From positions 1 to 46,938 of the IMG/VR virus record IMGVR_UViG_3300042328_000818: a DNA stretch of 46,938 bases. One strand, 5' to 3'. The translations under genes were made by a program, and so were the position numbers. Source of the stretch: a virus. Below, piece by piece: positions 31,343-44,329 of this stretch. Numbering within the stretch: position 1 is the first letter of the stretch; each line of letters starts with the position of its first letter. The notes beneath the pieces were generated by a model that saw nothing but the letters and a program-made list of their open reading frames with translations, searched no databases and had not been told where the DNA came from.

Positions 31343-32128
31343 ATGAAATGCATTGGAGCAATTATTGGAGATACAATCGGATCGATTTATGAATTCGACA
31401 ATGTTAAAACCAAAGACTTCGAGTTATTCACTCCAGGTTCTTGTTTTACAGATGATACAATTTTAACTATTGCCATCATGAAATCATTACTAGATGATGA
31501 ACCATTCGAACAAAACCTAAAATACTTCGGTAGAAGATATCCTAGGGGTGGATTCGGTGGAATGTTTAAACAATGGTTATTATCCGATGATATGTCCGCA
31601 TATAATAGTTACGGTAATGGTTCGGCTATGCGAGTTAGTCCAGTCGCTTATGTATCAGATGATATTGATACGGTTTTGGATTTAGCCAAACAAACTGCAG
31701 AAGTAACACATAACCATCCAGAAGGTATTAAAGGTGCACAAGCAACCGCATTAGCTATCTTACTTGCCAGACTTGGTTATTCTAAACCAGAAATTAAACT
31801 AGAAATCGAAACTAGATTTGGTTATGACTTAGATAGAACAATCGATGCAATTCGTCCTAACTTTAAATTCGATGAAACTTGTCAAGGAACAGTACCAGAA
31901 GCTATCATCGCTTTCTTGGAATCTACCACATTCGAAGATTGTGTCAGAAATGCGATAAGTTTATCTGGCGATTCTGATACGATTGCAGCTATAGCTTGCT
32001 CTGTGGCGGAAGCGTATTATAAAGAAATTCCACAGTTTATGATTGATGAAACGTTAAAACGTTTACCAGACGAATTCAAGGAAATTCTTGAAAGATTCAA
32101 TGTGAAATTTGTAACTAAGGAATCCTAA
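31343..32128 (+). CDS. ADP-ribosylglycohydrolase (DraG family)
   Basis: 261 residues. It removes ADP-ribose from proteins or nucleic acids. Metal ligands are visible: GDTIGSIYE, FTDDT (residues 35-39) and SGDSDTIAA (about 207-215), with NGSAMRVSPV and AEVTHNHPEGIKGAQ typical of the family. The gene starts nine bases after the broken acetyltransferase and overlaps its neighbour by one base. In a phage it could reverse host ADP-ribosylation defences or its own ADP-ribosyltransferase marks; no such transferase is seen in this window. Confidence 0.9.
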   Translation: MKCIGAIIGDTIGSIYEFDNVKTKDFELFTPGSCFTDDTILTIAIMKSLLDDEPFEQNLKYFGRRYPRGGFGGMFKQWLLSDDMSAYNSYGNGSAMRVSPVAYVSDDIDTVLDLAKQTAEVTHNHPEGIKGAQATALAILLARLGYSKPEIKLEIETRFGYDLDRTIDAIRPNFKFDETCQGTVPEAIIAFLESTTFEDCVRNAISLSGDSDTIAAIACSVAEAYYKEIPQFMIDETLKRLPDEFKEILERFNVKFVTKES

Positions 32129-32617: not shown

Positions 32618-33445
32618 ATGGATGAAAAGGAAGAAATTCCATTAAACATTTATTATTGCAGTGATTTACATTTGGAATTTCATAATATAGATTTAGATAC
32701 ATTTAATGTACCCAATTCTAAAGATTCTATTTTATTATTGTGTGGTGACATCGCAAATATAGAAACTTTACTTCGTGACAATAAAGCGTATAATGATTAT
32801 TCAGAAGAAAGTCATTCTATAGATTTCTTTAATTTTATCACCAATAACTTTAGAAAAATCATTTACGTCACTGGTAATCATGAACATTATTTACAAAATG
32901 ATATTAATACTGGTGTTAAAGATTTAAAGTTAGTGTTTAAACGATATAATAATTTACACATTGTGTCGGAAGGCGAATTGATTGAAGTAGACGATACAGC
33001 CTTTGTTTGTGGAACAATGTGGACAGATTTTAATAACGAAGATCCTATTACTCTAATGAACGCACCCAAGATGATTTCTGATTTTAGACAAATAGTAGAT
33101 GGACATTTCACTGTCAAACCTTCTACGATTTTAAAGAAATTCAAAAGTTTTAATCATTGGGTAGATTCATTGGATTTATCTTCTTATAATAAAACAATCC
33201 TAGTGACACATCATTCTCCTACTTTTAAGGTAGTGCACCCAATTTATGAGAATGAACGTATAATGAATGGATTATTCGCTTCTAATTGTGAAAAATTATT
33301 GAGTAAATTCGATTATGCATTTTATGGACATATGCACCAAGGATTAGACGTAGAAATAAATGATTGTAAAGTTTTAAGTAACGCAAGAGGTTATCCTAAC
33401 GAATTAGGATTATATATTTTTAAATTAAAATGTATAGGAATTTGA
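32618..33445 (+). CDS. Calcineurin-like metallophosphoesterase
   Basis: 275 residues with all metal motifs: SDLHLE (15-20), GDIAN (43-47), GNHEH (86-90), THHSP, and GHMHQG near the C-terminus. It hydrolyses phosphomono- or diesters; the substrate is unknown. It is distinct from gp47 at 45563 and more like single-domain phage phosphoesterases. TGAGGAA precedes the ATG. Confidence 0.85.
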   Translation: MDEKEEIPLNIYYCSDLHLEFHNIDLDTFNVPNSKDSILLLCGDIANIETLLRDNKAYNDYSEESHSIDFFNFITNNFRKIIYVTGNHEHYLQNDINTGVKDLKLVFKRYNNLHIVSEGELIEVDDTAFVCGTMWTDFNNEDPITLMNAPKMISDFRQIVDGHFTVKPSTILKKFKSFNHWVDSLDLSSYNKTILVTHHSPTFKVVHPIYENERIMNGLFASNCEKLLSKFDYAFYGHMHQGLDVEINDCKVLSNARGYPNELGLYIFKLKCIGI

Positions 33446-34362: not shown

Positions 34363-34866
34363 ATGAAAAAATTATTATTGTTATTACCGTTAGTTGTAAC
34401 CGCATGTTCTGATGATAAAAATAAGCATATCGAACAAGTTCAACCAGTTATCATTCAACCACAAGGTGTACCTACTCAACCAGTTGCACCTATCATTATT
34501 AATCAACAACCAGCTCAACAAAGTAATACTGGTGACACTATTACCAATATGGCAGTCGGTGCATTAGCTGCACATGCAATATCTGGAGCATTAAATGATA
34601 ATAAGGATACACCTACGCATACAACCATCATTAAAGAAAAAACGGTTTATGTAGATAGACCAGTAGAAGTGCAACATACTACAAGTAATCCTGCGCAGGT
34701 ACAACCATTTGTTCCAGTTAAATCCTCGATGAATATGGATAAACTATCTGAATCTGCTAAACAACCAGTATTACCACCAGCAGCTCAACAAGTAAAATCT
34801 TCATTAGATATGAGTAAATTGTCGGCTACACCTAAAATGAATTTGTCGAAATTGAGCAGAAAATAA
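34363..34866 (+). CDS. Pro/Gln-rich lipoprotein, 167 aa
   Basis: Signal sequence KKLLLLLPLVVTAC with the lipobox ending at Cys15 (VTAC) predicts a lipidated protein, and Asp+2/+3 (CSDD) suggests inner-membrane retention in Enterobacteria-like hosts. The rest is low-complexity Pro/Gln/Val, with one hydrophobic Ala/Gly helix (ITNMAVGALAAHAISGAL) and repeated KLSxxxK segments at the end. Phage lipoproteins often block superinfection or help lysis; which applies here is unknown. Its stop overlaps the next ATG (TAATG). Confidence 0.75.
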   Translation: MKKLLLLLPLVVTACSDDKNKHIEQVQPVIIQPQGVPTQPVAPIIINQQPAQQSNTGDTITNMAVGALAAHAISGALNDNKDTPTHTTIIKEKTVYVDRPVEVQHTTSNPAQVQPFVPVKSSMNMDKLSESAKQPVLPPAAQQVKSSLDMSKLSATPKMNLSKLSRK

Positions 34867-35468
34867 TGTTGACATTTAAAGAATTTAGAAATCAGTTAAT
34901 AATGGAGGTGCCACAACGAATTGGAAGGATGGACACTTTCATTTATACCGATTTTAAAGCTAATCGTCATTTATATGAAATAGCTAAAAATTTGCAACAT
35001 TCAATTATTAAAAATATAAAACCTGGTGTTGATTTAATTCAAGTCAATAACGATGTATATTGTACGGATGATAATTTATTACAAATAACTTATGTATTAG
35101 GTTTTGACGAACAAACAATCGAAGAATTAAAAGGAAAAGTTATTTCACAAGCTATAGTTTGGTCAAATCAAAATGTGGAATATACTAAAAATTTACCAAC
35201 CGAAATGTTTTGGAATTTCCTATTCAATAAAACGAATTGTATCATGACAGATAAACAACAATCTGATAAAGGTGAAAGGTTTTGGTGCGCACAAATAAAA
35301 ACTGCTTTTATTAAAAAATTGAATGTTTATAAATTTAACTCTAATACAAAATCTTTATATTCATATAATGATGTAGATGAAGTTCTAGGAGATAAAGATT
35401 TTGTTTATAGTAAAAATGAAAGTACCCGTGAAAATAAATTAGTTATCACTTCTAGGAAACTAACATGA
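34866..35468 (+). CDS. Putative tagged internal protein, 200 aa (paralog of next gene)
   Basis: Starts MLTFKEFRNQLIMEV, a capsid-targeting-like leader with an [LI]xE cleavage site (IME). The body resembles the next gene: QQSDKGERFWCAQIKTAFIK, KLNVYKFN here against GDYYWKYCIEDAFEN, KLNVYLYD there. That TxxGxxFW...LNVY pattern occurs in phage proteins of unknown function. If processed in the head, the product would be injected. The two genes overlap by four bases (ATGA). Confidence 0.68.
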   Translation: MLTFKEFRNQLIMEVPQRIGRMDTFIYTDFKANRHLYEIAKNLQHSIIKNIKPGVDLIQVNNDVYCTDDNLLQITYVLGFDEQTIEELKGKVISQAIVWSNQNVEYTKNLPTEMFWNFLFNKTNCIMTDKQQSDKGERFWCAQIKTAFIKKLNVYKFNSNTKSLYSYNDVDEVLGDKDFVYSKNESTRENKLVITSRKLT

Positions 35469-40289: not shown

Positions 40290-40709
40290 ATGATTAGTAC
40301 AATACCAGCGGGTTATATCGTTTCTATCACTACTTATGAGAATGATGGCGATAATTATAGAACAGATGATTACTTTGGTTTAACGAAAGAAGAAGTTAAT
40401 TTCTATAAATGGATCACTTCATTCTTCAATAGAAATTCATCTACGTTTGGTAATACAGAAGTAGATCTCGATAAAATCGAATCAATTAAAAATCAATTCG
40501 AGCCAAGTGAATTTCCAACATTCGCTAAATTATTAGATGAATATTTATCTGAATTTGACAATAATTCTACAACAGAAGAAATTCAATGGTTCGATAATTG
40601 GGTTTCATCTATCGTCGATGTATGGTTCGACGGTGATTATTATAGAAAAGTGGATTCTGTTCAAGTGTTATGGAACCCTGAATTAGTACAATTTATTGAA
40701 GTCGAATAG
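40290..40709 (+). CDS. Conserved phage protein, 139 aa
   Basis: VSITTYENDGDNYRTDDYFGLT followed by KEEVNFYKW resembles a hypothetical phage family that opens with an ITTWENDADxY segment. Acidic, soluble. Function unknown. Confidence 0.65.
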   Translation: MISTIPAGYIVSITTYENDGDNYRTDDYFGLTKEEVNFYKWITSFFNRNSSTFGNTEVDLDKIESIKNQFEPSEFPTFAKLLDEYLSEFDNNSTTEEIQWFDNWVSSIVDVWFDGDYYRKVDSVQVLWNPELVQFIEVE

Positions 40710-40720
40710 GAGAAATAAAA

Positions 40721-41353
40721 ATGAAAACTATCAAAGCTAAATTTACAGATTTTGTATTACGTCAAGATAAAATAGAAAACCTTAATCATAAACAATTCTT
40801 TAATGATTGTATGAAAGAAGTTTGTGGCGTGACTTTATCAAAATACGACTCAGAAAATGAACCTAAATTTACACCTGCATTAATTCAAGTCAATTGCGAT
40901 CCAGGGATGTACAAAGGAAATTTCAGTAGAGTTTCATTTAACTCATTATATCCTAACATCATTTATTCGCATATTGATTTAGACTCACAAAATGTAACCG
41001 AGCTATTACACTTATATTTGAATTATAAAAATGATCTAGATTATTCAAAGGAACTTTGGATATATTTGAAAGTATGTGCAAGTTCATTATATGGTAGTTA
41101 CCTAACTTCCAATGAACGTTCATTAGTTACCGAAAGAGCAAGACGTTATTTATTAGATTTTAAATATTTAGTGGAAACCGTTCATAATAGTAAGGTTTAT
41201 TATATCGATACAGATATGTTAATCATCGAAAATTTTAGAAATGATACTATCGATTTCTTTAAAAGTATAATTGGGATTAATATTCCAATCATTTTCGAAA
41301 ACAGTAAATATGGCTTTGTTTTCGAGAATAAAAAGAAATTTACATTTATTTAA
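40721..41353 (+). CDS. Miniature family-B DNA polymerase-like protein, 210 aa
   Basis: The sequence keeps the order of PolB palm/fingers motifs: A as VSFNSLYPNII (72-81; canonical D-F-x-SLYPSII, with the catalytic Asp read as Ser), B as LKVCASSLYG (116-125; canonical K-x3-NSxYG with Asn as Ser), and C as YYIDTDM (160-166; canonical YxDTDS). After motif C a strand and ENKKKFTFI match the KKxY segment. There is no exonuclease domain and the thumb is minimal. Two of three key positions are changed, so it is probably inactive as a polymerase. It may be a DNA-binding or regulatory derivative. AGGAGAAATAAAA precedes the ATG. Confidence 0.72.
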   Translation: MKTIKAKFTDFVLRQDKIENLNHKQFFNDCMKEVCGVTLSKYDSENEPKFTPALIQVNCDPGMYKGNFSRVSFNSLYPNIIYSHIDLDSQNVTELLHLYLNYKNDLDYSKELWIYLKVCASSLYGSYLTSNERSLVTERARRYLLDFKYLVETVHNSKVYYIDTDMLIIENFRNDTIDFFKSIIGINIPIIFENSKYGFVFENKKKFTFI

Positions 41354-41361
41354 TATAAGTG

Positions 41362-41397
41362 CGTCCTAGTTGCATAATAGTAACTAGGACGTTTTGT
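41362..41397 (+). terminator. Rho-independent terminator
   Basis: 10-bp stem CGTCCTAGTT/AACTAGGACG, 10-base loop, TTTTGTT tail; it overlaps the ribosome binding site region of 41412. Confidence 0.88.
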
Positions 41398-43426: not shown

Positions 43427-44329
43427 ATGTTAACATTTAAAGAATTTAATAGTCAACGACTAGACGAAAAACTCATCACTTTCGGAGGAAAAGCATACCC
43501 GAAATTTAATAACGTGGTACTAACAATGGGAGGTTCTGCTTCGGGTAAATCTTTTATCGCTAATAACTTACTAGGTATTGAGGGTTGGAAGTTTGATGTT
43601 GATCGTTTAAAGGAACTCGCGATTAAAGCTCCGATGTTTAATGAGAGGGTAAAACAAGAAACTGGAACGGATTTATCTAAAATTGATTTAAAGAATCCAG
43701 AAAACGTCAGTGTTATCCATGATATCTTAGGTGGAATTTATAATATCGATAAGAAAGCTCTTAATACGCAAGTATATTCAATCCTTACTGCAGATAAAGA
43801 ACATAAACCAAATTTAATTTTTGATGTAACGTTAAAAAGTATTGATAAGTTAGGTGAAATCACTAGAAACGTTATTAAAGCTGGTTATAAAAAGGAAAAT
43901 ATTCATATTGTTTGGATTGTTAATGATATTGAGGTTGCGTATAAACAGAATGCTCAACGTTCACGGACAATTGATACTGATATTTTATTGAGTACACATG
44001 AAGGTGCTGCATTAACGATGCATAAGATATTGGAAATGGGTGATAAGGTAAAAACCTATATGGATGGTGATATTATCATTGCATTTAATAAAGCTGGTGT
44101 TGAATTGGTTAAGTCTGGGATTGGTGATAAATTTACAACTGATGATTCCTTTATTATTGGACGTAAATCTAAGACTAAAGATGGAATATTAAAAACTGGA
44201 CAATATTTAAAGTCGGCGGATTATGTTTATGTTAAGCGTAAAGGTAAAACACAAACTAAACCAGTTGATCTTCAACAAGAAGTGATCGATAAAATTAAAC
44301 AATATACACCAGAAGTAGGTACTTGGTAA
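43427..44329 (+). CDS. P-loop kinase (zeta-toxin-like) with capsid-targeting-like leader
   Basis: 300 residues. The leader MLTFKEFNSQRLDEK resembles T4 internal-protein tags with an LDE cleavage site. Walker A GGSASGKSF lies at 35-43, then WKFDVDRLKE (55-63) in the substrate-pocket position of zeta-toxin and polynucleotide-kinase-like enzymes, LIFDVTLKS (about 140-148), and RSRTIDTD with QNAQRSR as the lid Arg region. The ATP-dependent substrate is unknown. If packaged and injected, it could act at once on the next host. AAAAAGGAATTAAA precedes the ATG. Confidence 0.75.
   Translation: MLTFKEFNSQRLDEKLITFGGKAYPKFNNVVLTMGGSASGKSFIANNLLGIEGWKFDVDRLKELAIKAPMFNERVKQETGTDLSKIDLKNPENVSVIHDILGGIYNIDKKALNTQVYSILTADKEHKPNLIFDVTLKSIDKLGEITRNVIKAGYKKENIHIVWIVNDIEVAYKQNAQRSRTIDTDILLSTHEGAALTMHKILEMGDKVKTYMDGDIIIAFNKAGVELVKSGIGDKFTTDDSFIIGRKSKTKDGILKTGQYLKSADYVYVKRKGKTQTKPVDLQQEVIDKIKQYTPEVGTW

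Follow-up and report, generated by a model that had tools for sequence, protein, structure and literature searches.

A putative stand-alone, shrunken family-B DNA polymerase palm in a T4-related phage and four huge phages

A short open reading frame (ORF) in a T4-related phage raises the question of what a 210-residue protein may be doing with the motifs of family-B DNA polymerases (PolBs) when some of its catalytic residues are altered. We use 'the window' for the whole stretch of DNA analysed here, a virus record 46.9 kb long that probably represents a genome fragment; the features of the ORF and its immediate surroundings are collected in Table 1. As the first-pass annotation had stated, the gene runs without frameshift from ATG to TAA and is preceded by a good ribosome binding site. 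The probability of a 210-codon frame staying open by chance, at the base composition of the window, is about 8e-9. Frame 0 was coding-like (+0.195 bits per codon; the remaining two forward frames scored -0.14 and -0.20), with a score lower than those of the known genes in the window (+0.26 to +0.47 bits per codon).

Table 1. Features of the small PolB-like gene and its flanks (positions in the window)
Feature	Positions	Strand	Remarks
Upstream ORF, 139 aa, phrog_2290 (unknown function)	40290..40709	+	stop codon overlaps the ribosome binding site
Ribosome binding site, GGAG	40709..40712	+	8 nt 5' of the ATG; overlaps the stop of the preceding ORF
Palm-only PolB-like protein ORF, 210 aa	40721..41353	+	ATG at 40721; TAA ends at 41353
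N-terminal extension, residues 1-60	40721..40900	+	
Motif A, residues 72-81, SFNSLYPNII (in VSFNSLYPNII)	40934..40963	+	Ser72 at the position of the catalytic Asp
Motif B, residues 117-125, KVCASSLYG	41069..41095	+	Lys117 kept; Asn replaced by Ser
Motif C, residues 161-165, YIDTD	41201..41215	+	D163 and D165 kept; both Asps present in 5/5 members
KKxY-like segment, residues 204-207, KKKF	41330..41341	+	protein ends 3 residues on; no thumb
Terminator-like hairpin, 13 pairs, then T-rich tract	41361..41392	+	directly 3' of the ORF

Motifs A, B and C follow one another in the order of a PolB and lead to a KKxY-like segment, and the Asp of motif A and the Asn of motif B are both replaced by Ser, all as previously annotated. 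The motif spacing, on the other hand, had been called sensible and turned out to be shorter than in ordinary PolBs in all three intervals: 45 residues from A to B (109-151 in the gp43 of related phages), 44 from B to C (58-60) and 43 from C to KKxY (76-87). Two independent curated PolB models matched the protein over different motifs, namely Pfam PF00136 (residues 57-84, E 0.0093, under the curated cut-off) and NCBIfam TIGR00592 (residues 116-181, E 3.9e-5, far under the curated cut-off). A single-sequence AlphaFold model was poor (mean pLDDT 37.5); when it was submitted to Foldseek, the top three matches were PolBs, none of them at E ≤ 0.001.

In a tblastn search of phage records with the window ORF no match was found at E ≤ 0.01, and PHROGs held no family for the protein. 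A first homologue appeared once the limit was relaxed to E 10: a stand-alone 216-aa ORF of the 634-kb phage LR745206.1, which matched along most of the window ORF at E 0.09. Through this ORF we reached a likewise stand-alone 210-aa member in the 642-kb phage LR756502.1, the two proteins matching each other at 7e-7 when the whole collection was searched, and a three-member profile added a 291-aa protein of LR756504.1 (636 kb, E 1.4e-7) and a 456-aa protein of LR756501.1 (735 kb, E 2.3e-6). The profile search for relatives in other phages, which had been proposed as a check, thus returned homologues in four uncultured phages of 634-735 kb. The window protein was also recovered in the opposite direction: a profile built from the LR745206 and LR756502 proteins only, searched against all ORFs of the window and of 64 loci, matched the window ORF at 1.5e-6 and full-length PolB at only 0.28, so that the window ORF outscored every true PolB in that set.

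Against the PDB, the three-member profile gave 52 matches, all to PolBs (best 5.3e-7), and the five-member profile gave 51, of which 50 were PolBs (best 4.1e-8, continuous from motif A to KKxY). The PolB-palm identity proposed at first is therefore backed by profile homology as well as by the four homologues. No protein-primed polymerase occurred among the matches of either profile, and an A-to-B interval of 45 residues leaves no room for TPR insertions, which speaks against the suggestion of a protein-primed mini-polymerase relative. T4 and RB69 structures were likewise absent from the PDB matches of the small family, and consequently a recent duplication of gp43 is not favoured. A profile of eight full gp43s matched the window ORF no better than shuffles, so we base the identification on the family profile. 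With MAFFT, the gp43 palms were wrongly aligned to the window ORF owing to the long fingers of gp43.

Beyond these five phages, the three-member profile was run on fourteen further phage records, among them a Lak phage and one of 462 kb, and found no member. IMG/VR was scanned with the protein, with the three-member alignment and with motif patterns at the short spacing, which yielded nothing beyond another copy of the window phage. No relative was seen in a protein scan of bacterial and archaeal genomes, where three motif-pattern matches contained stops and were read as chance, and none was found in plasmids or in the related T4-like phages. Other members matched glycosyltransferase, deformylase or heavy-metal models, but no two members had such a match in common, and we attributed these to chance as well. 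In Pantoea phage Phynn, ORF 26 is annotated as 'DNA polymerase', but the family profile had no match in that genome; this ORF adjoins a homologue of the window ORF at 43427.

The four huge-phage proteins could be aligned with the window ORF at 21-26% identity. All five members have shortened fingers and a shortened C-to-KKxY interval (A-B 45, 49, 48, 51 and 74 residues; B-C 42-47; C-KK 38-43), and none has an exonuclease or a recognised thumb; the thumb is absent or down to a tail of 3-43 residues, the LR756501 protein carrying about 200 extra C-terminal residues. A stretch before motif A weakly resembles the N-terminal extension of the window protein in LR756501 and LR756504, and is shorter in the other two. 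The D-x-D of motif C and one lysine of KKxY are invariant, and the motif B Lys is kept in four of the five. The motif A Asp, by contrast, is replaced in four members, by Ser in three and, if aligned correctly, by Glu in one: the motif reads SFNSLYP in the window and in LR756502, SFKDFYP in LR756501, DFNSLYP in LR745206 and ELNQVIQ (alignment uncertain) in LR756504. The family alignment showed no conserved acid that might compensate. The claim that the gene is maintained holds at the level of the family, where motif C and the KKxY lysine persist at about 24% identity; it does not extend to the window copy taken singly, whose sole near relative is identical.

That near copy lies on a 16-kb IMG/VR contig whose DNA is 99.98% identical to the window over 12.4 kb, and which therefore belongs to the same phage. 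The window holds T4-type genes for a sliding clamp, DNA ligase, RNase H, the late sigma factor gp55 and gp47; it ends just past gp47, and a replicative polymerase is absent from it. Among seven related T4-like contigs, gp43 lies on the same strand 11-18 kb downstream of gp47 in six and 3 kb downstream in the seventh, so that, by synteny, the gp43 of this phage most likely lies simply outside the fragment, beyond the right end of the window, and is expected to be its real polymerase. No exonuclease or thumb remnant was found beside the small ORF or elsewhere in the window.

Some other genes of the window deserve mention. An ADP-ribosylglycohydrolase (PF03747, E 5.6e-33) is encoded at 31343-32128, near a metallophosphoesterase at 32618-33445. 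The ORFs at 34866-35468 and 43427-44329 share an N-terminal MLTFKEF peptide, which we take to resemble a T4-type capsid-targeting N-terminus; the latter ORF belongs to phrog_5268, and one of its homologues carries the annotation Zeta toxin domain protein.

Each of the four huge phages encodes a PolB besides the small protein. In at least two of them (LR745206 and LR756502) this polymerase is split into two genes within the fingers, the halves lying on opposite strands some 100-130 kb apart with their motifs intact (at ~120.5-121.9 kb and 255 kb in LR756502.1, and ~131 kb and 234 kb in LR745206.1; loci L087-L092). A PolB split within the fingers was also seen in a T4-like contig (G021, ~46-49 kb; L071/L080), here as two neighbouring open frames (493 and 379 codons). 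Divergence was compared in one pair, LR745206 and LR756502, whose PolB halves are 81% and 72.8% identical and whose small proteins are 24% identical; the median for 64 other matched ORFs, from sampled regions, is 52%. Given the separate PolB and this difference in identity, the small protein is an extra, fast-evolving PolB-palm protein. Its gene surroundings vary among the phages.

Many unrelated small ORFs of LR745206 and LR756502 share a C-terminal peptide of the approximate form R-[DEN]-x-K-[LI]-x-x-[IL]-G-[IL]. In sampled 20-kb stretches of LR745206.1 and LR756502.1 (L099-L118, e.g. L105:2407-18885) it occurred in 36 of 236 and 57 of 292 ORFs, where 0.4 were expected in each from its internal frequency. 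Its synonymous codons vary, so that it resembles a tag at the protein level. The two small PolB-like proteins end in it, the replicative PolB halves do not; the peptide was absent from the window, the T4-like loci and the samples of LR756504, LR756501, LR756500 and Lak-A2. In the same stretches, 46 of the 528 sampled ORFs begin with an MK[YH][LI]K-x-[FY]-[NE]-like peptide, reminiscent of the T4 capsid-targeting sequence.

Taken together, the sequence comparisons indicate that the window ORF encodes a shrunken PolB palm with short fingers, one of a family that has members in at least five phages. In PolBs, the Asps of motifs A and C bind two catalytic metals, the motif A Asp coordinating both, while the motif B Lys touches the triphosphate and KKxY touches the primer duplex. 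Because a two-metal site lacking the motif A carboxylate should not support efficient synthesis, most members are predicted to be catalytically dead. Retention of motif C, of the lysine and of KKxY could preserve binding of nucleic acid, of a nucleotide or of a replication partner, and the protein might then serve as an accessory or a decoy without catalytic activity, working at phage or host DNA ends or forks. We give about even weight to this reading, i.e., a stand-alone palm that is mostly non-catalytic and binds nucleic acid or a partner. The dominant-negative, DNA-binding or regulatory role put forward in the first-pass annotation is a reasonable inference along these lines, and the fast divergence would fit a conflict with a host factor. 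However, both motif C Asps are strictly conserved, more than a purely dead protein needs, and the LR745206 member, with its motif A Asp, could be active.

The same residues may be read as those of an active minimal nucleotidyltransferase or polymerase, consisting of a palm and short fingers, in which motif C provides the essential metal binding and the motif A carboxylate is either not needed or contributed from elsewhere. The invariant D-x-D and KKxY lysine, the motif B Lys in four of the five members and the motif A Asp of the LR745206 protein are all in keeping with this, and divPolA2, a thumb-less accessory polymerase encoded beside a regular PolB, offers a precedent (PMC11348598). Ser, though, is not expected to stand in for a metal-coordinating Asp, the alignment offers no conserved acid in compensation and there is no thumb for gripping the primer-template, and we regard an active enzyme as unlikely. 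About as improbable, in our estimate, is a decoy or antagonist directed against a host factor or a defence that recognises phage polymerases. Such a role would account for the fast evolution, with 24% identity between phages whose PolBs are 73-81% identical, and variable gene surroundings agree with it; but rapid divergence can arise in other ways, the protein retains active-site residues and we identified no defence system that targets an isolated PolB palm.

The motif A and B substitutions, the codon score below those of other window genes and the lack of a homologue in related T4-like phages might instead betray the decaying remnant of a recently truncated polymerase gene. We consider this quite unlikely, as the frame, the ribosome binding site and the terminator are intact, homologues of similar design and motif spacing exist in four other phages, no exonuclease or thumb remnant lies alongside and the protein is nearer to the huge-phage family than to gp43. 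Nor is the ORF a gp43 fragment. Least probable of all is that it supplies one part of a split replicative PolB, acting in trans with other subunits: split PolBs do occur in these phage groups (LR745206, LR756502 and the adjacent halves of G021), but a protein combining motifs A, B and C with shortened fingers overlaps both halves, the huge phages already hold both halves with intact motifs, and the motif A Asp is missing. A broader idea, which we advance as possible rather than probable, is that of a class of isolated-palm phage proteins, common to very large and T4-like phages, in which motif C is essential and the motif A Asp is not, and which evolve under conflict in a new job beside the replicative polymerase; that job could be to sense nucleotides or DNA ends, or to carry out an unusual phosphotransfer.

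Irrespective of its actual function, the mostly non-catalytic palm favoured here resembles the family-B palm (PF00136; thermococcal PolB, Pol alpha) in its ordered motifs A, B, C and KKxY and in a significant, continuous profile match. It differs from family-B polymerases in that an exonuclease, an N-terminal domain and a recognised thumb are lacking, the fingers are about half as long or less, and the motif A Asp and motif B Asn are replaced. With the T4-like gp43 of related phages it shares the PolB family; those gp43s, unlike the small protein, are frames of 833-908 codons with intact motifs and much longer spacings, and at 210 aa the window protein lacks the exonuclease, full fingers and thumb, and the more than 800 aa, of a replicative gp43.

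Exapted, inactivated PolBs are known, namely poxvirus F12, the C-terminal half of Pol epsilon and herpesvirus UL8 (PMC4304020, PMC7544198). Like them, the window protein would be a PolB derivative that has lost catalytic residues and has another role beside an active PolB: PolB homology is present, the catalytic loss is partial, and a separate PolB is encoded in the huge phages, the genome of the window being incomplete. F12 and the C-terminal half of Pol epsilon, however, are large proteins of several domains, and F12 has had most of its palm catalytic residues replaced (PMC4304020, PMC7544198); the window protein is a palm only, and in the small phage family the loss is partial and motif C is invariant. 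Exapted DNA polymerases as such are thus already known; the small PolB-palm family was previously unlabelled. It suggests that a PolB palm can persist alone, without exonuclease and thumb, in phages with another PolB, and that it can evolve much faster than the PolB of the same phages (one pair compared). With the motif A Asp present in one and missing from four, the five proteins make a test set for a palm without motif A catalysis, and provide a lead on function in otherwise unannotated giant phage genomes.

In the literature searched we found no description of a PolB counterpart of divPolA2, the accessory family-A polymerase of Caudoviricetes that has no known thumb (PMC11348598). The two share an extra palm protein without known thumb or exonuclease, the presence of a regular PolB and variable neighbourhoods; divPolA2, unlike the small family, belongs to family A, is predicted to be active and carries an unrelated N-terminal domain (PMC11348598). 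Among phage proteins, divPolA2 is the nearest concept to the small PolB-palm family (PMC11348598).
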